Source: Rothia sp. HMSC078H08 (GTDB lineage Bacteria; Actinomycetota; Actinomycetes; Actinomycetales; Micrococcaceae). From it: a stretch of DNA of 64,000 nt. The stretch lies in contig NZ_KV795257.1 in NCBI RefSeq assembly GCF_001808955.1, positions 56,285-120,284 on the forward strand. Direction: 5' to 3'. A model generated the notes under the pieces. It was not told where the DNA came from, searched no databases, and saw only the letters and a list, made by a program, of their open reading frames with translations. This document shows positions 40,201 through 51,281 of this stretch, piece after piece; position 1 is the stretch's first letter, and each line of letters begins with the position of its first letter. The translations under genes and the position numbers were made by a program.

Positions 40201-42486
40201 CTATTTTTCTGCGGGCACACCCCTGCGGCTGCTCGCGTTGAGGGTTTGCAACTGGTCAAGCAACGCCGCGCGCAGGTGCGCAGGACCGACCAGTTCGAGG
40301 GCACCTCGGTGCGCGATGACGGTGTCGAGGATGTTCTTATCGCCAGCGCCGTGGGCGTTGTTGTAGTAGTGAATACGCACGTACTGGGTGCGTGAAGCCT
40401 TCTTCACGTGGTGGGTGCTTCGACGCATGTACGTTGCGGTGAGAGTATCGAGCGGCTCGCCGCTGGGAATATGCTCGGTCGGGTGAATACGCAACTCAGC
40501 AAAGGGGTTGGTCTGAGTACTGTGCTGCTGCGCGTGCCAATGCGGGACGGTGTCACCGGTGACCGGGTGGGCACGACCCGCACCCGCCTCGTGGATGTGG
40601 TTGATGCGGGTGAGGCGGAAGTTACGCCAGAAAGTGGGGGTCTTCTCCCCTGCCTCATAATCCGCCACCTCGCTGTTTCCCGCCTGGCTGTCGGCAGTCT
40701 CACTGTTTCCTGCCTCGCCGGTGGCTGCGTGAGCAAAAGCCTCGGGTACGTACTCGGGGACTTGCTCACCACGCGCGGCATAGTAGCGTTCCTCAGCGGT
40801 ACGGCACCACGCATGCAGGTACATGTGGTCGCGGTGCAACACCAGCGCATACGGATCCACCAGACGATCCGCGGCACGCTCAGAGGTACCGTAACCAATG
40901 GTCACGGCGTTGCCGCTGCTCAGGGCGGCAGTCGCCTCCTGCAGCAGAGGCTCCTCCGGGGCGAAGCACAGGTGCTGCGCATAAACGGGCGCGTTCGGGT
41001 ACGCGGCGGCGAGCGCCTGGCGGATACTGCCCAGGCGCGCATCCGCCGGGTGCAGAATATCTGCGGCGGACAGGGTGAAAACGAGGATAGCGAGCTCAGT
41101 GTCGGTGAGGCGGGCGTAGTTCAGCAGCGTGTGCGGGGTCGCGCCGCCAAAGTCCGGCAGCAGATTAATGTAGCTGGGCTTGAGGGCGTCCGGGTCCTTG
41201 GGGTCGGCGTCGAAAGGTACGGTGTCTACCTGCGCGAAAATCTCGGGAATGATGGTCTTGCCGAGGTCGCGGTTTTTGTCGGTGTCCACGCTGTAGAGGG
41301 CGTTGAGCTGGTTCAATGGCATGGGCTCTTCACCGTGGGCGCTCGCCCAGCGGTCGGCACGGTGCAGACCCAAAATCAGGTCGACGAGGGCATCGAGGAC
41401 ATTATTGCGGTTACGCTGGTCAATCTTGCTCCACGTGCCGGGGTCCTCGACCGCTCCGCTGTGCAGGTCGGTGAGGGTGCGCAAGAGCTGCTGCTGGGCG
41501 GCGTAGCTATCACGCTGGCGGGTGGGCGCGTCCTCAGATTCGGCGGGCGGCTCGATAACGCAGCTGTAGCTCGTCGCCGCCACGGCGCTATCAATCGTGC
41601 CGTACGAGGGCACGGTGAAGGGCGCCGACAGCGTGGAATCGGCGTTGACCTCGGCAACAATCAGGCTTTCTTCGTAGCCCTTAATGTCTTCAAGCCAGTT
41701 CTTGGCATTGAACGTCGCGTTAATGGGGGTCGAATCAATACGCGAAAGCATCGTGAGCTTCTGAATACGGCTGGCGCGGAACGTGTACTCCTTACGCGCC
41801 GCGCTCTCAGTGTAGTAGCCGACAAAGTACCAGGTGCCGTAACGGTAACCAATACCGGCAACACTGACCTTCTCCTGCGTGCGGGTCGCACCGGCGGCAG
41901 TCTGGTAGGTGAACGTGACCGTCTTACGCTCCGCATAGGCGGTAAACAGCTCGTTCAGGTGCGGGTTATCGCTAAAGTAAATGCGCTGAAGGGGCTCACG
42001 GTAGCTGTACAGGTTCTTCGCGCGCTGACGCTTACCGGTCTTCGGGTCCTGAATCTTTGCGGCGGCGAGCGCCTCATCGGTGAGGTGCTCGCTCGTGAGC
42101 GCAATCTTGCGCAGGATGCGGTAGGCGTCATCCTGCAGTTCGGTGCCTTCCCAACCGCGCAGGATGGTGTTGATGAGGCGGAATTCCTCAGCGGTAGGGT
42201 TCCAGGCGGGCAGCTGTGCGGCGTCGCTGGTTTCGAGGCGGTAGCGCTCCCCCAGGTCCGTGGTCACGTGGGTGATGCGCGCGCCGGCATCACGCAGGGT
42301 CTGCTTGGCTCGCTCAAAGGCGCGTTCCTGCGACTCGCTGAGGGAGCCGTTCGCGCGCGTCTTGACACCGAGCAGGGTCAGTAGCTCGTTGCGGCTGATG
42401 CCCTGGGTTCGGGTTGCGGTGTCGGGTGCCTCGGCGGCGGTGGCGAGGCGGTGAAGAGTCATGTAAAGCTGAGCTGCGGTGGACAT
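40201..42486 (-). CDS. pafBC: Fused PafB-PafC WYL-domain transcription regulator
   Basis: PafBC activates the RecA-independent DNA damage response in Actinobacteria. Here the two proteins are one chain of 761 residues: N-terminal winged helix (about 1-110), first WYL domain (about 170-260, GYRYGTWYFVGYY), an incomplete second winged helix region (about 390-520) and a second WYL domain (GYGTSERAADRLVDPYALVLHRDHMYLHAWC, key part VDPYALVLHRDHMYLHAW) extending to the end. A nine-residue repeat (EAGNSETAD, QAGNSEVAD) interrupts the second WYL domain. TATGAT ends 6 bases before the ATG, suggesting a leaderless transcript. It lies between the Pup genes and tatA, the mycobacterial position. Confidence 0.9.
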   Translation of the reverse strand: MSTAAQLYMTLHRLATAAEAPDTATRTQGISRNELLTLLGVKTRANGSLSESQERAFERAKQTLRDAGARITHVTTDLGERYRLETSDAAQLPAWNPTAEEFRLINTILRGWEGTELQDDAYRILRKIALTSEHLTDEALAAAKIQDPKTGKRQRAKNLYSYREPLQRIYFSDNPHLNELFTAYAERKTVTFTYQTAAGATRTQEKVSVAGIGYRYGTWYFVGYYTESAARKEYTFRASRIQKLTMLSRIDSTPINATFNAKNWLEDIKGYEESLIVAEVNADSTLSAPFTVPSYGTIDSAVAATSYSCVIEPPAESEDAPTRQRDSYAAQQQLLRTLTDLHSGAVEDPGTWSKIDQRNRNNVLDALVDLILGLHRADRWASAHGEEPMPLNQLNALYSVDTDKNRDLGKTIIPEIFAQVDTVPFDADPKDPDALKPSYINLLPDFGGATPHTLLNYARLTDTELAILVFTLSAADILHPADARLGSIRQALAAAYPNAPVYAQHLCFAPEEPLLQEATAALSSGNAVTIGYGTSERAADRLVDPYALVLHRDHMYLHAWCRTAEERYYAARGEQVPEYVPEAFAHAATGEAGNSETADSQAGNSEVADYEAGEKTPTFWRNFRLTRINHIHEAGAGRAHPVTGDTVPHWHAQQHSTQTNPFAELRIHPTEHIPSGEPLDTLTATYMRRSTHHVKKASRTQYVRIHYYNNAHGAGDKNILDTVIAHRGALELVGPAHLRAALLDQLQTLNASSRRGVPAEK

Positions 42487-42615: not shown

Positions 42616-43011
42616 TTAGCGGACGTCCAGCAGGTCCACCACGAAAATCAGGGACTCGCCGGGCTTAATGACCGAGCCAGCGCCGCGGTCACCGTACGCC
42701 ATGTCGGCGGGAATCTCCAGGCGACGACGGCCGCCGACCTTCATGCCGAGCAGGCCCTCATCCCAGCCGCGGATAACCTGGCCAACGCCCACCTGGAACG
42801 GCAGCGGCTCGCCGCGGTTCCAGGACGCGTCAAACTCTTCACCGGTGGAGAATGCCACACCAACGTAGTGGGTGAGCACGCGGGAGCCGGGAACAACCTC
42901 AGCGCCTGCGCCCTCAATCAGGTCGGTGATGACCAGCTCGGTGGGGGCGTCGCCCTCGGGGAAATCGATTTCAGGCTTTTCGCGGTCGAGGTTACGCTGA
43001 CCGAAAGACAT
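42616..43011 (-). CDS. Cytosolic FKBP-type peptidyl-prolyl isomerase
   Basis: A 131-residue single-domain FKBP that catalyses proline cis-trans isomerisation. Conserved active-site elements are THYVGVAFSTGEEFDASWNRGEPLPF, of which YVG, FD and PLPF line the pocket, then GQVIRGWDEGLLGMKVGGRR and PADMAYG. There is no signal peptide. AAAGGAG precedes the ATG. It lies downstream of a lipoprotein with the same domain, after 115 bases containing a GCGCTCGCCG hairpin. Confidence 0.93.
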   Translation of the reverse strand: MSFGQRNLDREKPEIDFPEGDAPTELVITDLIEGAGAEVVPGSRVLTHYVGVAFSTGEEFDASWNRGEPLPFQVGVGQVIRGWDEGLLGMKVGGRRRLEIPADMAYGDRGAGSVIKPGESLIFVVDLLDVR

Positions 43012-43125: not shown

Positions 43126-44184
43126 CTACTGTGCGGTTGCCGAAGCGGACGCTGCCGGGGTTGCGGTCGCAGAAGCCTCAGCGGTTGCCGAAGCGGACGC
43201 CTCCGCAGCAGCTGCGCTAGAAGCCGCCTGAGCACGCTGCAGGGTCTGCGGGTTCTCCTCCGCACCCAGAATATCAACAACGAACACCAGAGTGCCCGAA
43301 GGCTTGGAACCGCCGGTGTCGTTACCGTACGCCAGGTCCGCCGGGATGACCAGCTCAACGCGGGAGCCGACCTTCTTGCCCTTCAGGCCCTGAGTCCAGC
43401 CCTTGATAACGCCCTGCAGGGAGATGCCCATCGGGGTGGCGGCGGCGTAGTTGCCGTCAACGACCTTACCGTCGGAGTACTGCACGCCAATGTAGCGCAC
43501 GTACACGGTGTCGGTTTCCTTGACCTCGGCGCCCTCGCCCTCGATGAGGGTCTTAGCGGTCAGCTCGGTGACCTCCGGCTTGTTATCGGGCAGCTTAATT
43601 TCAGCCTTGCCGGTGGACTCATCCAGGGTGAAGGACGGCAGCGACGGGTCAGCCTCAACAGCCTTACCGGTTGCGTACTTGGGCAGCTTCGTCTTCACGG
43701 TGTACACCTCAACGTTGGTTGCGGCGCCGGGCGAAGCGGTCGTAGTGGTCACACCCGCGGTGCTGCGCTGCTGCAGAACGTTGGTAGTGTACGAGAAAGA
43801 ACCGCCAACCTTAATCTTCTTCAGGGTTTCGTACACCTGCGGTGCAGCCTGCTTCAGCTGATCGTTAATCGGCAGCAGAATCGGCTCGCTGGAGTAAGTG
43901 GAACCGTTAAGCTTGCCGTCGGTGCCGTTGAACACGGCAGCCTCAACGAGCACGTAGTCACCATCGTTGATGGACTCGCCGTTACCTTCCTCAATCACGT
44001 ACGCGGAGGGGCTAGAAGCGGCAAAGGGGGTCGCGAAGGACGCCTCAGGCTCAGCGGTCGCGTTCTTCAAGGTGTACTTCACCTTAGACAGGTCGCCGCT
44101 GGACTGCGCGCCACATGCAGACAGTGCAAGCGCGAGAGCAGCCGCGCTGGCACCGAAAATAGTGAGCTTAGAGCGTTTGGTCAT
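43126..44184 (-). CDS. Lipoprotein with FKBP-type isomerase domain
   Basis: An exported lipid-anchored prolyl isomerase of 352 residues. The signal ends in the lipobox LSAC (Cys near 24). A first, degenerate FKBP-like domain (about 55-175) is followed by a canonical one (about 215-310: VYVRYIGVQYSDGKVVDG, GVIKGWTQGLKGKKVGSR, PADLAYG). The tail is an Ala/Ser/Thr-rich low-complexity stretch that may span the wall. ATG at 44184 has AGAGGAT upstream. It probably folds proteins outside the membrane. It is placed between pafA and pafBC. Confidence 0.9.
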   Translation of the reverse strand: MTKRSKLTIFGASAAALALALSACGAQSSGDLSKVKYTLKNATAEPEASFATPFAASSPSAYVIEEGNGESINDGDYVLVEAAVFNGTDGKLNGSTYSSEPILLPINDQLKQAAPQVYETLKKIKVGGSFSYTTNVLQQRSTAGVTTTTASPGAATNVEVYTVKTKLPKYATGKAVEADPSLPSFTLDESTGKAEIKLPDNKPEVTELTAKTLIEGEGAEVKETDTVYVRYIGVQYSDGKVVDGNYAAATPMGISLQGVIKGWTQGLKGKKVGSRVELVIPADLAYGNDTGGSKPSGTLVFVVDILGAEENPQTLQRAQAASSAAAAEASASATAEASATATPAASASATAQ

Positions 44185-44388
44185 AGTGTTATCCTCTGGG
44201 GTTTTCTGTGAGAGTGGGGCGTGTGAGTGCCCGTGTGCCACAGAACAGTTTACAGGTATAGGTTTAGCTGTTTTATGCTACGGCACGTAGCTGTGTTCAG
44301 GCTGTGTCGCGGCCGAGGCGTTCCCGAAGGTTGACAACCCTGACCGCCGGCGGGTTTCCCCTCATCAGAGAGTTTCTAGCAATGCTGT

Positions 44389-45861
44389 TTAGCAGGGCGG
44401 CGGAAATGCCGCCTCCTGATGCTGACGCGCCTTAGACGCCAACAGGCTCAGCACCTCCTCCAGCTCCTCGCTGCCGGTAGCAAACGGGTCCTTACACACC
44501 AGCGTGTGCTGCGGGTAGGCGTTGAGCTTTAAATGCACCCAATCCACGGTGAACTGCTCCCCCGCCGCAACCGCCGCATTAATGAAACGCGAACGCTGCA
44601 GAGCGCGAGTGTTCGGCGGCTGAGTCTTCGCCGCCTCCGCGGCACCCTCAGGCAGGATGCGCTTGACCGCACCGCGACGAACCAGCGCGTGGAAGACGCT
44701 ACGCTCCGGGTCGATGTCGTGGTACGCCAAATCCAGCTGACGGATGCGGGCGCTCGCATAATCGGCAGGCTGACCAGCCGCGCGGGCACGGGCAATATAC
44801 GCATCCAGAAGCTTCTTCTTAATCGCCCAGTCAATCTCAGTGTCAATGCTGCTGTAGTCGCCGGACTCGATAGCGTCCAGGGTGCGCTGCCACAGGTCCA
44901 GGGCGTATTCCACGTGGTGGTGGTGCGCGCCGTACTGCTGCACGTACTGGCGTGCCGCATCCAGGTAGTGACGCTGAACGCTCAACGCCGTGTAGTGCTT
45001 ACCGTCGGTGGTTTCGAAGGTTGCGGTGCCGGTCAGGTCGTGGCTGATAGCGCGCAGAGCCGCCGGAACAGACACAATATCCAGGCTGGTGACCGGGAAG
45101 CGGTCTTCCAGCATGCGTAGCACCAGGTCGGTGCTGGCAATCTTCAGCAGGGTCGTCGGCTCCGCCATGTTCGAATCGCCATTAATGACGTGCATGCGAC
45201 GGAACTTCGAAGCGTCCGCGTGCGGCTCATCGCGGGTGTTAATGAGCGGGCGAGCGCGCGAAGTTGAGGTGGACGCCGCCTCCCAAATATGGTCGGCACG
45301 CTGCGAGAACGAATACGAAGGCACACCCGTGCTGGACGCCGGGTCGGTCGAACCGGGCACCGGGCCGCCGTTCGGGTGGGTCTTACCGGCACCGACCAGA
45401 ATCTGGCGGGTCACCAGGAACGGCACGAGCTGGGCAATCAGGTCGTTGAACTGCAGTTTGCGGCTGATCAGGTAGTTCTCGTGGCTGCCGTAGGAGTTGC
45501 CCGCCGAATCCACATTGTTCTTGAACAGGTACAGTTCACCGTCGAGAGGGCGGCCCTCCGAGCCTGCGAGCAGGCGCTTGCGGGCGGTACGCGCCAGATC
45601 AGCGAAAAGCAGCTCACCGGCGCGTTCCTGCGCGAGCAGTTCGTCAATGCTGCCGCATTCGGCGGAGGCGTACTCGGGGTGCGAACCCACGTCAAGGTAG
45701 AGCCTACCGCCGTTGGGCAGGAAGACGTTCGTTGAACGCCACTGATCCAGGACGGGCTTGAAAAGGGCGGCGGCGGACTCTTCGATGCTCAGCCGACCGA
45801 GCCCGTGCGGGACGTAGCTGAGCCCGAATTCGCTTTCAATGCCGAAAATACGGTGTTCCAT
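44389..45861 (-). CDS. pafA: Pup-protein ligase PafA
   Basis: ATP-dependent ligase that joins the C-terminal Glu of Pup to lysines of target proteins. The 490-residue protein has the glutamine-synthetase-like fold: GIESEFG (7-13) with metal-binding Glu residues, NGGRLYLDVGSHPEYASAE with the catalytic Asp, NNVDSAGNSYGSHENYLISR, and NTRDEPHADASKFRR. All motifs are intact. The ATG lies 29 bases after the pup stop and has only a weak SD, so it likely depends on pup translation. In mycobacteria prcB and prcA sit between pup and pafA; here nothing does. Confidence 0.97.
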   Translation of the reverse strand: MEHRIFGIESEFGLSYVPHGLGRLSIEESAAALFKPVLDQWRSTNVFLPNGGRLYLDVGSHPEYASAECGSIDELLAQERAGELLFADLARTARKRLLAGSEGRPLDGELYLFKNNVDSAGNSYGSHENYLISRKLQFNDLIAQLVPFLVTRQILVGAGKTHPNGGPVPGSTDPASSTGVPSYSFSQRADHIWEAASTSTSRARPLINTRDEPHADASKFRRMHVINGDSNMAEPTTLLKIASTDLVLRMLEDRFPVTSLDIVSVPAALRAISHDLTGTATFETTDGKHYTALSVQRHYLDAARQYVQQYGAHHHHVEYALDLWQRTLDAIESGDYSSIDTEIDWAIKKKLLDAYIARARAAGQPADYASARIRQLDLAYHDIDPERSVFHALVRRGAVKRILPEGAAEAAKTQPPNTRALQRSRFINAAVAAGEQFTVDWVHLKLNAYPQHTLVCKDPFATGSEELEEVLSLLASKARQHQEAAFPPPC

Positions 45862-45890
45862 GATGCTGACCCGGCGCGCAGGTGCGCCGG

Positions 45891-46085
45891 TTACTCGCCG
45901 CCCTTCTGGACGAAGCCGGTGACGAAATCTTCAGCGTTCTCAGCGAGCAGGCCGTCAATTTCGTCGAGCAGGTCGTCGACCTCGCTCACGTCAGAGACAA
46001 CGTGGGAGGCGGCGAGGGTCAGTTCCTGCTCCTGCTCGGCTGCGGTGGTTTCGGTCTGCTGTGCGCTGATGCGTTCGCGGCTCAT
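45891..46085 (-). CDS. pup: Prokaryotic ubiquitin-like protein Pup
   Basis: The 64-residue intrinsically disordered tag. It ends in Gly-Gly-Glu, so it is ready for PafA without deamidation (many species encode GGQ). The central LTLAASHVVSDVSEVDDLLDEIDGLL region contains the helix that binds the Mpa coiled coil, and the conserved C-terminal part reads NAEDFVTGFVQKGGE. GAGGAGAG precedes the ATG. It lies between dop and pafA on one strand. Confidence 0.97.
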   Translation of the reverse strand: MSRERISAQQTETTAAEQEQELTLAASHVVSDVSEVDDLLDEIDGLLAENAEDFVTGFVQKGGE

Positions 46086-46143
46086 GGTTCTCTCCTCAAG
46101 GGGTTTTCGGTTGTGGACAAATAAGTTTTTAGTGGGGTTGGGT

Positions 46144-46187
46144 GCGGGGTATAAGGGTTTTGGTACCCGGACCTTACTGCACCCCGC
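46144..46187 (-). terminator. Hairpin between dop and pup
   Basis: GCGGGGT with TAAGG pairs to CCTTA with ACCCCGC, with a small internal bulge. It lies 90 bases after dop and 60 before pup, so it may attenuate read-through into pup. No strong T-run. Confidence 0.45.
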
Positions 46188-46275
46188 CTGTGGGTTATGT
46201 GGTTTTTACTCTTCTGAATGGGGGTATTCGCCCCGGGGAAGAATGTGAGTTTATGTGGGTTTAGGGGGTGTGCTG

Positions 46276-48099
46276 CTAGCGCAGGCGGTTCAGCAACGCA
46301 TCCGAATGGTTTACCTCATCCAGCAGCGGCTCCACCTGGGCGGCACCGTAGCGGGTCGGCTCCATCATCGTAAAACGAGTCAGATCCTTCGAATACCTGC
46401 CGCGGCACGAGACCGTATCCCAGTTAATACCCAGAATCTCCTCCGGCCAGCGGGACATCAGCGTGCCACGTAAAAACGCGCGCGTCTCACGCGGCGGCTC
46501 GGTCGTCGCACGCTCAATCTGCTCCGCAGAGAACAGCGTGCGCATACGGCCACGCGCCACCAGACGGTGATACAGGCTCTTCGACGGGTCAATATCAGCG
46601 TACTGCAAATCCAAAGCCTTCAACTTCGGATTCGCATAATCTACGCCCTGAGCGACATAACCGCGCACCAGCGCATACTTCGCCACCCAATCCAGACGAT
46701 CCGCCAGCGAGAGCGGGTTGGTTTCCAGGGCATCCAGAACCTCACCCCACAGGTTGAGGATCTGCGCGGTCGCAGCATCCACACCTGCCGGGTTCGACTC
46801 CTCGTGCGCGCGGGATGCCTCATAGTAGGCGCGCTGAATCTGCAGGGCACTCGCCGAACCACTCGTGGACACCGGGTTCGGCAGGGTCGCCGAAGACGGC
46901 GCCAACGGCAGCTGAACCGACAGCGATAGGTCGTGGCTGACCGCGTGCATCGCCGCCACCGGATCGGACAGACGCACACCCGGCAGCACCGGGTGCTGCT
47001 CGCTGTGCGACTCAATCAGGTTCATGACCAGCGCCGCCGTGCCGAACTTCAACAGGTTCGAGTAGTGCGAGAGGTTCGCGTCCGCCGGAATCACGTGCAG
47101 GCGGCGGTACTTCGACTCATCCGCATGCGGCTCATCGCGCGTATTCACAATCGGGCGGCGAATCGTGGTCTCCAGGCCAATCGTGCGCTCAAAGAAATCA
47201 GCACGCGAACTAATCTGAAAACCCGGAACCTCACCGTGTGTACCAATACCCACACGGCCCGCACCCGTAAAAATCGCGCGGGTCGCAAAGAAGGGCAGGA
47301 GCGCATCCGCAACCTGCTCAAACGGAACATAACGGCTAATCAGGTAGTTTTCGTGGGCGCCGTACGACTGGCCCTTCGAGTCGGTGTTGTTCTTGTACAG
47401 CTTCACCTGCGGCAAATCCTGCGCGTGGTTGCCCAGCTCCACCAGCGACTCGTACGCCAGCGCGTCACCGGCAGCGTCATAGAGCACCGCGTCGGCGGGG
47501 GTCAGAACCTCCGGCGAGGAATACTCCGGATGCGCATGATCCACATACAGGCGCGCACCATTAGGCAGAATCGCGTTCATGGTCACGCGGTCCCAATCCA
47601 GACGCTCCGGGAAACCACCGCGGCCGTGTACACCGGCGAGCGCATCCAGGGCGCTCCGCGGCTCAGCGGGCTCACCCGGTGCCTGAACGCCCGCCTCACG
47701 CATAATCTCCAGGGCGATGTCTTCGCTGGTCAGCTCGGTACGGGTGTGCGTCATCTGGCTTGAGTGGGCGGTGGAGGCGTCCTGAACCTGACCGAACGCA
47801 TCACGCAGCGGCGACTCGGACTCGCCCAGCCACTGACCCTCGGGGGCGGCGGGTGCGGGTTCGGTCGAGTAGTTCTCTGCCTGGCGTGCCTGCTCGGCGG
47901 TTAGCTCATCCGCCAGGGCGCGGCGCTGCAGCTGCTCGCGGAAGGCGGCGCCGCGGCGGAAGGCGAGCTTGGCGTAGGTGTTGACCACCAGTGCGGACAG
48001 CACGGTCGGGTTGGTGCCCGGTGCGGAGGGCGCGATGACGCCGTACTCGGTTTCGGCACCCATAATGCGGTGCACGCCGTAGCTGGGGGTGGAGTTCAT
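46276..48099 (-). CDS. dop: Pup deamidase/depupylase Dop
   Basis: PafA homologue that removes Pup from substrates. It has GAETEYG (14-20), NGARLYVDHAHPEYSSPE with the nucleophilic Asp, NNTDSKGQSYGAHENYLISR and NTRDEPHADESKYRR. At 607 residues it is about 100 longer than usual; the extra lies at about residues 58-160, around an ESPLRDAFG motif, in two disordered or helical inserts (for example LADELTAEQARQAENYSTEP). Since Pup already ends in Glu, only depupylation should be needed. AGGAGAA precedes the ATG. Confidence 0.95.
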   Translation of the reverse strand: MNSTPSYGVHRIMGAETEYGVIAPSAPGTNPTVLSALVVNTYAKLAFRRGAAFREQLQRRALADELTAEQARQAENYSTEPAPAAPEGQWLGESESPLRDAFGQVQDASTAHSSQMTHTRTELTSEDIALEIMREAGVQAPGEPAEPRSALDALAGVHGRGGFPERLDWDRVTMNAILPNGARLYVDHAHPEYSSPEVLTPADAVLYDAAGDALAYESLVELGNHAQDLPQVKLYKNNTDSKGQSYGAHENYLISRYVPFEQVADALLPFFATRAIFTGAGRVGIGTHGEVPGFQISSRADFFERTIGLETTIRRPIVNTRDEPHADESKYRRLHVIPADANLSHYSNLLKFGTAALVMNLIESHSEQHPVLPGVRLSDPVAAMHAVSHDLSLSVQLPLAPSSATLPNPVSTSGSASALQIQRAYYEASRAHEESNPAGVDAATAQILNLWGEVLDALETNPLSLADRLDWVAKYALVRGYVAQGVDYANPKLKALDLQYADIDPSKSLYHRLVARGRMRTLFSAEQIERATTEPPRETRAFLRGTLMSRWPEEILGINWDTVSCRGRYSKDLTRFTMMEPTRYGAAQVEPLLDEVNHSDALLNRLR

Positions 48100-48237
48100 G
48101 GGTTTCTCCTGAAGGGTTCCTATATAAAGTCTGGACCTGCGGTAATGCCGGTTGTATAGCGGGGTAAGCGCGAGGTGTGGGCTGAGCGCGCAGGTTAGCG
48201 GGTGCGCGCCGTCCGACTCATGGCGCGGGCGCTCGGT

Positions 48238-50064
48238 TTAGCGCGGCGGCTCCACCGACACCAGACGGCCACGTACACCGGCAACGGTGAGCGCGTCCTC
48301 AATATCGGGCAGCGGCGGCAAGTCCACCTGATCCTCAAACTCGGCGCGTACCGCCTCCAGCAGGTGGCGGGTACCAATACCCACACCCGCTGCGTTATCG
48401 CCGGCAGTCAGCGCCTGCAGTTGCTCCTTAATCGCCGCCTTCTTTGCGCGATCCACAATATTGCGAATCACCGCGCCCGAAGCGAAATCGCCGCGGTACA
48501 GCGTGTGAGTGGACAGGTTCGCGCTCGCACCAGAACCAACGACCATGGAAGAATCCACAGTCGCCACAGCGTACGCCGTGGAGGGGGTGCGCGCGTACAG
48601 CTGACCTGCCGCCGCCGCAATCATCGCGGTCAGGGCGGCGCGGGTCGAGCCGGCGGCTGCCACCTCCGCAACGTCCAGGGGCAGGTCCTCGGTCAGGTAC
48701 AGGCCGAAAATCTCTGCCGCACCGGCGGCGTCCGGGCGGTTAATGCGGATTTTCAGGTCGAGTCGGCCCGGGCGCATCACGGCGGCATCAATCAGGTCTT
48801 CACGGTTGGTCGCGCCAATAACAATGACGTTCTGCAGCGACTCCACACCGTCAATTTCGGCAAGCAGCTGCGGCACGATGGTCGTCTCAATATCGGAGGA
48901 ACGACCCGAACCGCGCATACGGAACAGCGACTCCATCTCGTCAAAGAACACGACGACCGGGTGGCCCGCCTCCGCCTTCTCACGGGCGGCAACAAAAATA
49001 TCGCGGATCTGACGCTCCGTCTCACCGACGAACTTATCGAGCAGCTCGGGGCCCTTAATGTTCAAGAAGTAGCCGCGAGTAGCCGAACCCGGGTTCAGCG
49101 CAGCCGCACGAGCCGCCAGGGAATTCGCCACAGCCTTAGCAATCATGGTCTTACCGTTACCGGGAGGACCGTAGAGCAGAATACCCTTGGGCGGTGCCAG
49201 GTGGTAGCGCTCAAAAATCTCGGGGTGCAGGTAGGGCAGCTCCACCGCGTCGCGAATCTGCTCAATCTGCGCGCCCAGGCCACCAATCTGCTCGTAGGTG
49301 ACGTCCGGAATCTCTTCCAGGACCAGCTCCTGCGAGCGGGAGGCGGGAACCTGCGAGGTCAGCATGCGGGTGCGGGTGTCGAGGGTGACCGCGTCGCCGG
49401 TGCGCAGCTGCTCAATGTCGAGGGAACCAGCCACGCGCGCCACCTGCTGAGCACCCGAGGACGTATCAACCAGCACGCGCTGCTCATCCAGCACCTCACG
49501 CACGGTCACCACGTCACCGAAGGGCTCGGTGTCCAGGGCGAGCACCGCCTCGGTCTTGTCGTTGAGCAGCACGGTCATGCCGGGGGTCAGCGTCGACAGG
49601 TCAATGAGCGGGGACACGGGAATACGCATCATGCGGCCGCTCACCTGAACATCCAGGTACGTATCAATCTCGGCGGGGGTCTTATCATCAGCGACCTGCT
49701 CGTAGGTCATGGTCTGACCCTCATGCACCGCCAGCACAATCGCCGAATTCAGCGGCGGCATAACGTTCTGCGACAGGGACGCGCGCAGACGCTCCACCTG
49801 GTAGCGCATGCTGGTGATGGCCTCGACGAGCTTGCGGTTCTTCTCCCCCGCACCACGAATCTGTCGGCTCATATTGTCGCGGGTTGCCTCCGCCGCGGAG
49901 AGTCGGCGCAGCACGGCGTCATACTCCTGCGCGCTGACGGGCTGACTGCCGGGCAGGGAGGTCGACCCGAAAGCAGCCGAGTAGTGCGGTGCCGCGCTGG
50001 CTGCACTGTGGGCGGTGCCGTATTGGGGGGTTCCTGCCTGATCTGCAGATTCGTGGGTGGACAC
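48238..50064 (-). CDS. mpa: Proteasome-type AAA+ ATPase Mpa/ARC
   Basis: Ring-forming unfoldase that recognises Pup through its N-terminal coiled coil (about 45-98). Two OB domains follow, then the AAA module with Walker A GPPGNGKT (299-306), Walker B VVFFDEMES and the arginine-finger region RPGRLD. In species with a 20S proteasome the chain ends in Gln-Tyr-Leu, which docks into the core; here it ends VSVEPPR with no such tail. With prcBA absent from the locus, it likely unfolds pupylated proteins without delivering them to a proteasome. Start is GTG with AAAGGAG upstream. Confidence 0.95.
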   Translation of the reverse strand: MSTHESADQAGTPQYGTAHSAASAAPHYSAAFGSTSLPGSQPVSAQEYDAVLRRLSAAEATRDNMSRQIRGAGEKNRKLVEAITSMRYQVERLRASLSQNVMPPLNSAIVLAVHEGQTMTYEQVADDKTPAEIDTYLDVQVSGRMMRIPVSPLIDLSTLTPGMTVLLNDKTEAVLALDTEPFGDVVTVREVLDEQRVLVDTSSGAQQVARVAGSLDIEQLRTGDAVTLDTRTRMLTSQVPASRSQELVLEEIPDVTYEQIGGLGAQIEQIRDAVELPYLHPEIFERYHLAPPKGILLYGPPGNGKTMIAKAVANSLAARAAALNPGSATRGYFLNIKGPELLDKFVGETERQIRDIFVAAREKAEAGHPVVVFFDEMESLFRMRGSGRSSDIETTIVPQLLAEIDGVESLQNVIVIGATNREDLIDAAVMRPGRLDLKIRINRPDAAGAAEIFGLYLTEDLPLDVAEVAAAGSTRAALTAMIAAAAGQLYARTPSTAYAVATVDSSMVVGSGASANLSTHTLYRGDFASGAVIRNIVDRAKKAAIKEQLQALTAGDNAAGVGIGTRHLLEAVRAEFEDQVDLPPLPDIEDALTVAGVRGRLVSVEPPR

Positions 50065-50204: not shown

Positions 50205-51281
50205 TTATTCGGCGGATTCAGTCGCCTCAGCTGCTGCGCTGTCGTTTTGCGCGGTACCGTTCTGTTCGAGCGCAATCTCGTTCGCGCGTGCGGCGTGAGC
50301 GGCAAGGTTCTTCGCATCGCGGGCTGCGCGGCGAATCTTCTTATCGGTCACCTCACGCTCACCCACGTTCATGGGAATCCACGCGTTCATATCCTCTTCA
50401 GAGAAATCAGTCTTGGACGCGCGACGCTTCGGTGCCAGACGCACCGCACCGTCAGCCAGGCGACGAGCCACGACCAGGAACGCGGTGTGTGCAACCATGC
50501 GGTGGTCGGGGCGGACCGCCAGGCCCTCCACGTGCCAGCCGCGCACAATGGTTTCGTCGCATTCGGGTTCGGTGAAGCGGCCGTCCAGGCGCATGCCCTC
50601 AACCAGGCGGGACATCTGGGTCACGGTCGCAACGTAGCAGATGAGCACGCCGCCGGGTGCGAGCGCCTCCGCTACAGCGTCCAGGCATTCCCAGGGTGCG
50701 AGCATGTCGAGTACGACGCGGTCGACGCTGCCGGGCTCTTCAACCTGCGGAAGGGTGTCCTGCAGGTCGCCGATGCTCAGCTTCCACGCCGGGTGGGGTC
50801 CACCGAACATGGTTTCGATGTTGCCGCGGGCGACGTCTGCGAACTCTTCACGACGTTCGAAGGAGTGCACGCAACCGTAGTCGCCGACTGCACGCAGCAG
50901 CGCGATGGACAGTGCACCGGAGCCGACGCCGGCCTCGACGACGCGTGCGCCGGGGAAGATGTCTGCCTTGACGATGATCTGGGCGGCGTCCTTGGGGTAG
51001 ACGACGGCTGCGCCGCGCGGCATGGAGAGCACGAAGTCCTTGTAGAGGGGGCGCAGCGCCTGGTAGAGGATGCCGTGAGTGTTGGCGATGACGGTGCCTT
51101 CGGGTGCGCCGATGAGGTCGTCGTGCTTGAGGAAGCCCTTGTGGGAGTGGTATTCGCCGCCTTCGGCGAGGGTGATGGTGGTGATGCGGCCGCGTTCGTC
51201 AGTGATTTGGACGCGCTCGCCGGGGCGGAAGGGGCCGCGGCGGTTGATTGCGCCGGTAGGGGTGTGGGTGCCGCTGCTCAC
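50205..51281 (-). CDS. trmI: tRNA (adenine-58-N1)-methyltransferase TrmI
   Basis: SAM-dependent enzyme methylating A58 in the T loop of tRNAs. The 358-residue protein has an N-terminal beta domain (GPFRPGERVQITDERGR), the SAM motif VVEAGVGSGALSIALLRAVG (about 108-127) and LDMLAPWECLDAVAEAL containing the catalytic Asp. The last 80 residues are a charged, Ala-rich extension. GTG start with GAGGAG upstream. The trmI-mpa neighbourhood is conserved in Actinobacteria. Confidence 0.94.
   Translation of the reverse strand: MSSGTHTPTGAINRRGPFRPGERVQITDERGRITTITLAEGGEYHSHKGFLKHDDLIGAPEGTVIANTHGILYQALRPLYKDFVLSMPRGAAVVYPKDAAQIIVKADIFPGARVVEAGVGSGALSIALLRAVGDYGCVHSFERREEFADVARGNIETMFGGPHPAWKLSIGDLQDTLPQVEEPGSVDRVVLDMLAPWECLDAVAEALAPGGVLICYVATVTQMSRLVEGMRLDGRFTEPECDETIVRGWHVEGLAVRPDHRMVAHTAFLVVARRLADGAVRLAPKRRASKTDFSEEDMNAWIPMNVGEREVTDKKIRRAARDAKNLAAHAARANEIALEQNGTAQNDSAAAEATESAE

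Follow-up and report, generated by a model that had tools for sequence, protein, structure and literature searches.

According to one review (PMC8223512), there is a subgroup of actinobacteria without genes for the 20S proteasome core, likely through secondary loss; Corynebacterium glutamicum and Micrococcus luteus are included in its figure legend. M. luteus and Kocuria rhizophila are also named in the legends of published co-occurrence figures. According to two reviews (PMC8223512, PMC12288473), the ARC unfoldase of C. glutamicum disassembles ferritin that has been tagged with the small protein Pup, freeing its iron.

Here we describe a complete pupylation locus in a 64,000-nucleotide stretch of DNA from a Rothia species of the R. 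mucilaginosa group; the whole stretch is called the window, and all coordinates are window positions. Rothia is a human-associated genus. We believe, with a probability of about 0.75, that this locus would run a cycle of tagging, unfolding and release instead of a route to degradation. The tagging system is proteasome-free pupylation of the Corynebacterium kind, a type that has already been described: pup, pafA, dop and ARC are all present, the 20S core has no match in kin, and ARC appears to be without docking elements. None of the hallmarks of a Pup-proteasome system yielded a match, whether prcB and prcA (sought in the locus itself and in kin), the GQYL tail, or the proteasome activator Bpa (sought in 35 Rothia genomes). 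The principal features are as follows.

48238..50064, minus strand: mpa/ARC, ring-shaped AAA unfoldase of 608 amino acids (TIGR03689, 610 bits, cut-off 505; AAA and two OB domains)
48238..48267, minus strand: C-terminal end of Mpa, the last predicted beta-grasp strand followed by VSVEPPR and the stop; linker and GQYL docking tail absent
48496..48576, minus strand: beta-hairpin region of the beta-grasp domain, residues 497-523 (alignment to 5kwa)
49012..49170, minus strand: Mpa motor motifs, from Walker A GPPGNGKT (residue 299) to pore loop KFVGETER (344) (motif reading)
46276..48099, minus strand: dop, depupylase/deamidase of 607 amino acids with a lengthened Dop loop (TIGR03688, 529 bits, cut-off 492; alignment)
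45891..46085, minus strand: pup, tag of 64 amino acids with C-terminus GFVQKGGE (PF05639; TIGR03687, 62.7 bits, cut-off 41.5; read from the DNA)
45862..45890, minus strand: 29-base gap between pup and pafA, the position of prcB and prcA in proteasome-bearing relatives (read from the DNA)
44389..45861, minus strand: pafA, Pup ligase of 490 amino acids (TIGR03686, 577 bits, cut-off 551)

The anatomy of the locus is a matter of direct observation. The genes mpa, dop, pup and pafA follow one another on the minus strand from 50064 to 44389 with prcBA not among them, and each of the four proteins scores above the curated equivalog cut-off of its NCBIfam family. A preliminary description of this DNA had reported the same gene order, the 29-base gap, an Mpa chain ending in VSVEPPR (the window reads GRLVSVEPPR-stop) and a Pup ending in GGE, and every one of these details agrees with our reading. 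In Arthrobacter (L023), prcB and prcA occupy the interval between pup and pafA.

The absence of the 20S core is likewise observed in the kin of this isolate. The preliminary description had proposed looking for 20S subunits outside the locus, and a profile search of 35 genomes of the genus, which are kin and not the isolate itself, found PF00227, the family of both subunits, in none of them (0/35), nor was Bpa (PF10759) found in any of the 35. At a threshold of E<=10, PF00227 was still without a match in four of four Rothia genomes, including that of Rothia sp. RSM386 (L001), the nearest relative by Mpa (99% identity, followed by R. mucilaginosa 141_RMUC, L002, at 93% over the best segment; the best 80 of 437 confirmed loci were kept for this comparison). 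Among the relatives searched overall, PF00227 was matched in 16 of 59. Mpa is present in all 35 Rothia genomes, although it is truncated in G024 and broken in G002, and 34 of the 35 fetched loci hold the complete set of mpa, dop, pup and pafA, such that their clustering cannot be attributed to chance. The exception is L003 (G347; G016), in which mpa-dop-pup are separate and pafA, seemingly missing, lies approximately 60 kb away on the same contig. The broken mpa of L165 (G002) is found in a single-contig genome that is 95% complete, and might reflect either a sequencing error or a true loss. Outside the genus, one Micrococcus metagenome-assembled genome (L041) apparently carries opposite-strand genes between dop and pup.

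A further difference resides in the unfoldase. From the DLP motif to the end of the chain, the window Mpa has 28 residues compared with 51-56 in 73 distinct GQYL-bearing Mpa proteins, making it approximately 23 residues shorter at this end; among 76 other distinct Mpa proteins, the 44 in which the motif was found and the length measured have a median of 38.5 (range 28-96). An AlphaFold model of the window protein (25 sequences; mean predicted local distance difference test score, pLDDT, 75.7; predicted template modelling score, pTM, 0.54) contains a coiled coil at residues 45-100 followed by OB, AAA and beta-grasp domains, with the last beta-grasp strand at residues 600-605 of 608. Mycobacterial Mpa proteins occupy the first 30 places among the structural matches of this model, and the best solved structure by sequence is Mpa 5kwa. 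As modelled, the chain would stop where the linker and docking tail should begin. The GQYL end is also absent from the Mpa of all 33 Rothia genomes other than G024 and G002.

The explanation that a proteasome is encoded elsewhere in this isolate, or that a sequencing error masks the tail, is extremely improbable. It draws on the fact that the absence of the 20S core was established with kin genomes, but PF00227 is missing from every one of the 35 congeners. The preliminary description had itself raised the prospect of an error hiding a GQYL end. Such an error is very unlikely because three other genomes (L001/G021, G001 and G010) have the same VSVEPPR end and a fourth (L002/G035) has VSVEPAR. 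A frameshift concealing the tail was also rejected, as no GQYL end was found in any of three frames over the 700 bases past the mpa stop.

A second docking element has been described for mycobacterial Mpa, namely the hairpin 501-ANGDK-505, whose mutation reduces degradation and which is not conserved in species without a 20S core such as C. glutamicum (PMC8755798, PMC9599533). In the window protein this docking loop is replaced and the region lengthened by 11 residues. We surveyed 149 distinct Mpa proteins from 175 rows, leaving out two broken or cut copies. The hairpin pattern is kept in 65 of the 66 that have both a 20S core and GQYL (changed in one), and is changed in 67 of 73 that have neither GQYL nor GxYL. 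By sequence comparison, the window Mpa has lost both known docking elements, the tail and the hairpin. To the extent that kin genomes and sequence allow a verdict, degradation of tagged proteins by a 20S core is ruled out.

The terminal residue of Pup carries no comparable message. The preliminary description had taken the GGE end as evidence for a non-degradative tag, and this argument did not survive. Pup ends in GGQ in 29 of 35 Rothia genomes and in GGE in six, with a proteasome-free locus in both groups, and GGE also occurs in Cellulosimicrobium loci that carry proteasome genes. Because each ending is found with and without a proteasome, the GGE end is uninformative on the fate of the tag.

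If the locus no longer served a proteasome, it might be no more than a decaying leftover of the lost system. This is a very unlikely reading despite the disappearance of the proteasome, Bpa and both docking elements, and despite the broken mpa of G002 and the cut copy of G024. Besides standing together in all but one of the 35 genomes, the four genes all have low ratios of nonsynonymous to synonymous substitution (dN/dS, estimated by the Nei-Gojobori method with our own script) in two close pairs, ranging from 0.016 to 0.07. Specifically, the values against L002 and G001 are 0.065 and 0.035 for pafA, 0.016 and 0.07 for pup, 0.062 and 0.068 for dop, and 0.066 and 0.048 for mpa. Compared with the more distant G011, pafA gives 0.056, and the synonymous sites of dop and mpa are saturated. 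Beyond the pore loop, the window Mpa has a Walker B motif FFDEME (373) and an arginine finger MRPGRLDLK (430), and it has the sensor as well. More broadly, each of these five elements occurs in 99-101 of the 101 rows that lack GQYL, a set in which rows overlap and some genomes appear twice; the exceptions are L126, with a variant pore loop, and the two copies that are cut or broken. Judged by these comparisons, the motor motifs and the tag enzymes are intact and under purifying selection, and the locus is not decaying.

The same data bear on the proposal that Pup is a plain signal or inhibitor that is set by PafA and removed by Dop, with ARC acting as a separate chaperone. PafA and Dop are indeed constrained as strongly as ARC, as this proposal would have it. 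However, in all but one of the 35 Rothia genomes the fetched locus unites mpa with the genes for Pup, PafA and Dop, and a search of 62 genomes gave an ARC match in 59 (partial in two), and thus we consider a role for the tag apart from ARC to be rather unlikely. A separate observation concerns Dop, which has 603-608 amino acids in the window, L001, L002 and L003 (the R. mucilaginosa clade) compared with 529-530 in four other Rothia. The extra length comes mostly from additions around the Dop loop (window 47600-47970), a loop that influences substrate choice in mycobacterial Dop according to one paper (PMC9556782).

The relatives of Rothia provide some indication of how such a locus might have arisen. 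In a class sample of 296 genomes, PF00227 is present in 240 and PF03136 (PafA/Dop) in 251, with the ligase family lacking PF00227 in 12 and the reverse in one. The latter, G291, has one PF00227 match and no match to Pup ligase or Mpa, and might encode an orphan 20S or an HslV-like protein. Three of the 12 (G063, G065 and G068) were set aside because they keep Bpa, with GQYL kept in G063 and G068 and the loci of these two at contig ends; their lack of a 20S core is probably due to assembly gaps, and nine cases remain. In a family sample, PF00227 is present in 162 of 295 genomes, and the loci of 35 further genomes from this sample were read, in most cases one or two from each genus.

A quick tree with 71 rows, of which 67 are Micrococcaceae and four outgroup, was made from Mpa without its last 25 residues, Dop and PafA, and has some long branches. 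It contains a 38-row clade that includes Rothia (Shimodaira-Hasegawa-like approximate likelihood ratio support, SH-aLRT, 99) and is entirely without GQYL. The preliminary description had suggested aligning Mpa C-termini across the Micrococcaceae, and this comparison extends the loss of the tail to the whole clade. It also separates the tail from the core, as some tail-less relatives retain the 20S and G368 has a tail without prcBA. Within the clade, five rows have the 20S, namely G036 and four of the five genomes examined from the genus we call g139. The prcBA genes lie between pup and pafA in G036, G447, G463 and G505; for G516, whose locus is truncated, the 20S core is known from the family profile search.

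The fewest changes on this tree are three for the tail and six for the 20S, whereas counting losses only gives three losses of the tail and nine of the 20S. Forcing the 33 rows of the clade that lack the 20S into one group was rejected by the approximately unbiased test (p-AU 5e-69), for a group that was named after the tree was seen. We also tested tail against 20S by independent pairs on this tree, obtaining five pairs on starred branches, two in which the tail changes in the same direction and three in which it does not differ, which is not significant (p 0.5) with so few pairs. In a tree of PrcB plus PrcA, G036 groups with three g139 genomes in one clade (support 100) on a long branch nested within the Micrococcaceae, and descent is therefore favoured over re-acquisition. 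Parsimony suggests a single loss of the tail in the 38-row clade, earlier than that of the 20S, although separate tail losses may have occurred. We infer this order of losses from the quick tree.

Other combinations of tail and core exist as well. G368 (L195, L218) has lost prcBA save for a short prcA-like stretch (22 bits), apparently recently, while its Mpa GQYL is intact and its Bpa, although shortened, still ends in GQYL. In G300 (GTYL) and G185 (GRYL), prcBA is absent and the Mpa tails are altered. Conversely, three Brevibacterium species (L061, L073 and L076) and G058 (L128, L182) have a 20S core beside a tail-less Mpa; Bpa is present in Brevibacterium and without a match in G058, and both keep the GKYNEF-type lysine of PrcA.

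The surviving core genes of G036 and g139 deserve particular attention. In the three g139 genomes compared, prcB and prcA are under purifying selection, with dN/dS values of 0.056-0.12 in three pairs that resemble the 0.064-0.215 of two GQYL-bearing control pairs, values that are rough because synonymous divergence exceeds 1 in many pairs. By eye, PrcB of G036 and g139 retains the TTI, GDRRAT and EKVF motifs, which we take to hold its catalytic residues. PrcA of G036 and g139 departs from the other rows at two docking positions. The H0 lysine, conserved in all 55 rows that do not belong to the tail-less set, is replaced by Q or A in G036 and g139, and the lysine of GKYNEF, presumably the alpha-subunit residue that partners the tail, is K in 54 of these 55 rows and R in G036 and g139. 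Published work describes the partner of the docking tail as a conserved alpha-subunit lysine. The change to arginine is nevertheless weak evidence of uncoupling because L051, whose Mpa ends in GQYL, shares it.

Bpa is stated to accompany the 20S in every 20S-bearing actinobacterium (PMC8223512), with an exception noted in another paper (PMC4254994), namely Propionibacterium acnes, which has a 20S core without ARC or Bpa. This rule seems to have further exceptions, as we obtained no Bpa match in the 20S-bearing genomes G036, G447, G463, G505, G516, G058, G374, G384, G409, G048 and G194 (G516 is 71% and G048 89% complete). Of these, G374, G384, G409, G048 and G194 keep a GQYL Mpa (GHYL in G048). 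A search by title and the start of the abstract, restricted to open-licence literature, returned no paper on a tail-less Mpa beside a 20S core.

These patterns could be accommodated by a bacterial proteasome that was dismantled from its docking side first, a proposal to which we give even odds. An ancestor of Rothia, Micrococcus, G036 and g139 would have lost the ARC tail, the hairpin and Bpa, and ARC would have become a stand-alone unfoldase; the 20S would have survived uncoupled and then been lost repeatedly. If true, G036 and g139 operate a 20S proteasome without a known ring activator, and Pup was already useful without a proteasome before the proteasome was lost.

For the Rothia locus itself, what is known of the family makes the following cycle likely. 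PafA would join Pup to lysines of target proteins, with no deamidation needed because the Pup encoded in the window already ends in Glu. The ARC hexamer would capture Pup with its coiled coils, and its pore would draw in the end of the tag, unfolding the target or taking it apart. With neither a GQYL tail nor a hairpin to hold a 20S core, the target should be released on the far side, and Dop would strip off Pup to recycle the tag. By parsimony, loss of the docking tail, and probably of Bpa, would date to the base of a clade within the Micrococcaceae. The 20S genes would have disappeared afterwards on several occasions, with selection maintaining the tagging half. The preliminary description had likewise proposed a non-degradative use. 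That part stands, given that the kin have no 20S and that both docking elements appear to be gone; its choice among unfolding, sequestration and signalling is not one that sequence can make. The parallel it drew with corynebacteria holds up well, as the published account (PMC8223512, PMC12288473) and the C. glutamicum control genome both agree with it.

A number of points weigh against this scheme. The absence of the 20S was established in Rothia kin rather than in the window's own isolate, 6 of the 73 distinct tail-lost Mpa proteins retain the hairpin, and the dN/dS of pup is 0.25 against the more distant G011. The order of tail before core in Rothia comes from parsimony, as both are gone within the genus, and G368 shows the opposite order, with the core lost before the tail. 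Furthermore, the steps of unfolding, release and recycling are transferred from C. glutamicum and mycobacteria, and no experiment on Rothia pupylation was found in the open-licence literature. That literature likewise yielded no paper on the subject; the one paper containing both words is, judging from its available portion, not on the topic.

An unfolded protein must end up somewhere, and with its motor motifs intact ARC might pass Pup-tagged proteins through a different contact to another protease, such as ClpP, FtsH or some unknown partner, in which case the tag would still mean degradation. We regard this possibility as quite unlikely. No conserved replacement tail was seen, as the last residues of Mpa vary among Rothia species (EPPR, AGAF, VSEV, GRGE, FPKE and others).

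Given the precedent of ferritin in C. glutamicum, the cycle of tagging, unfolding and release invites the question of which proteins are its clients. Matches to PF00210 above the cut-off fall into two score groups in the genus, greater than 105 bits and less than 95 bits, and the deciding gene was fetched for every Rothia genome with a match. All 17 high-scoring genes match a Rothia ferritin and none matches Dps. Another 17 genomes have no high-scoring gene, and the single PF00210 hit of each matches Dps and not ferritin. By NCBIfam, the one ferritin tested is a non-heme ferritin and both Dps proteins tested are Dps, with the ferritin and one Dps below the curated cut-off. Overall, ferritin is present in 17 of 35 genomes and Dps only in another 17, with neither in G017 (65% complete), and thus some iron cage gene is present in 34 of 35. 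The genomes nearest to the window, G001 and G021, have both ferritin and Dps. The Rothia ferritins are of two distant kinds, one in seven R. mucilaginosa-like (G001-like) genomes and one in ten others (55-65 bits), and G003 has an additional, weak PF00210 hit of 20.9 bits, under the cut-off, that matched neither ferritin nor Dps.

Every one of the 17 Dps-only genomes has a fetched locus containing mpa, dop, pup and pafA, although the mpa copy of G024 (a genome 72% complete) is cut and in G012 pafA runs into a contig end. Because 17 of 35 genomes carry Dps without ferritin, ferritin was rejected as a general client, and on the evidence of gene content its release cannot be the general purpose of Rothia pupylation. 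Our leading guess, by analogy with C. glutamicum, is that protein cages such as ferritin and Dps are clients.

The genes that flank the locus are as follows.

50205..51281, minus strand: TrmI-like tRNA methyltransferase, upstream neighbour (PF14801, PF08704)
43126..44241, minus strand: FKBP-type prolyl isomerase of 371 amino acids, adjoining pafA (PF00254)
42616..43011, minus strand: small FKBP-type prolyl isomerase of 131 amino acids (PF00254)
40201..42486, minus strand: WYL-domain regulator of 761 amino acids (PF13280, two stretches; no NCBIfam match)

The regulator is probably a fused PafBC, although the name is our assignment. This neighbourhood, with TrmI upstream and the FKBP pair and WYL regulator downstream, is common to most of the fetched proteasome-bearing Micrococcaceae loci. 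The FKBP pair was therefore rejected as a hallmark of proteasome-free loci, as it also follows pafA where a proteasome is present. The gap between pup and pafA (45862-45890) is filled by a GC-rich hairpin of 7 bp (-15.9 kcal/mol as RNA) that is identical in G001, near-identical in G010 and G035, and not present in six other Rothia loci compared.

Among known systems, the Rothia locus most resembles that of C. glutamicum, whose control genome also has the Pup ligase family and ARC and lacks PF00227 and Bpa, and whose docking hairpin is not conserved either, according to the literature. It differs in that a ferritin client is not universal in Rothia. The locus extends proteasome-free Pup systems to another genus in which the opening of ferritin cannot be the sole purpose. 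Micrococcus, Citricoccus and Glutamicibacter are similar in that their fetched loci have no prcBA between pup and pafA and an Mpa without GQYL, although Rothia is a separate genus and its R. mucilaginosa clade has a longer Dop loop. Arthrobacter shares the gene order mpa, dop, pup, pafA and the flanking genes, but unlike the Pup-proteasome systems of Arthrobacter and mycobacteria, Rothia has no prcBA, GQYL, hairpin or Bpa.

The relatives matter more than the Rothia locus. They include apparent intermediates, some with the tail lost and the core kept and others with the core lost and the tail kept, that allow tests of Pup and ARC without a protease and of a 20S core without known activators. 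The closest parallel to G036 and g139 is P. acnes, which is described in one paper (PMC4254994) as having a bacterial 20S without a known GQYL-bearing activator; unlike P. acnes, which has no ARC, G036 and g139 retain a tail-less one. The Rothia locus itself fits a known system, and the intermediates among its relatives are the part worth following.

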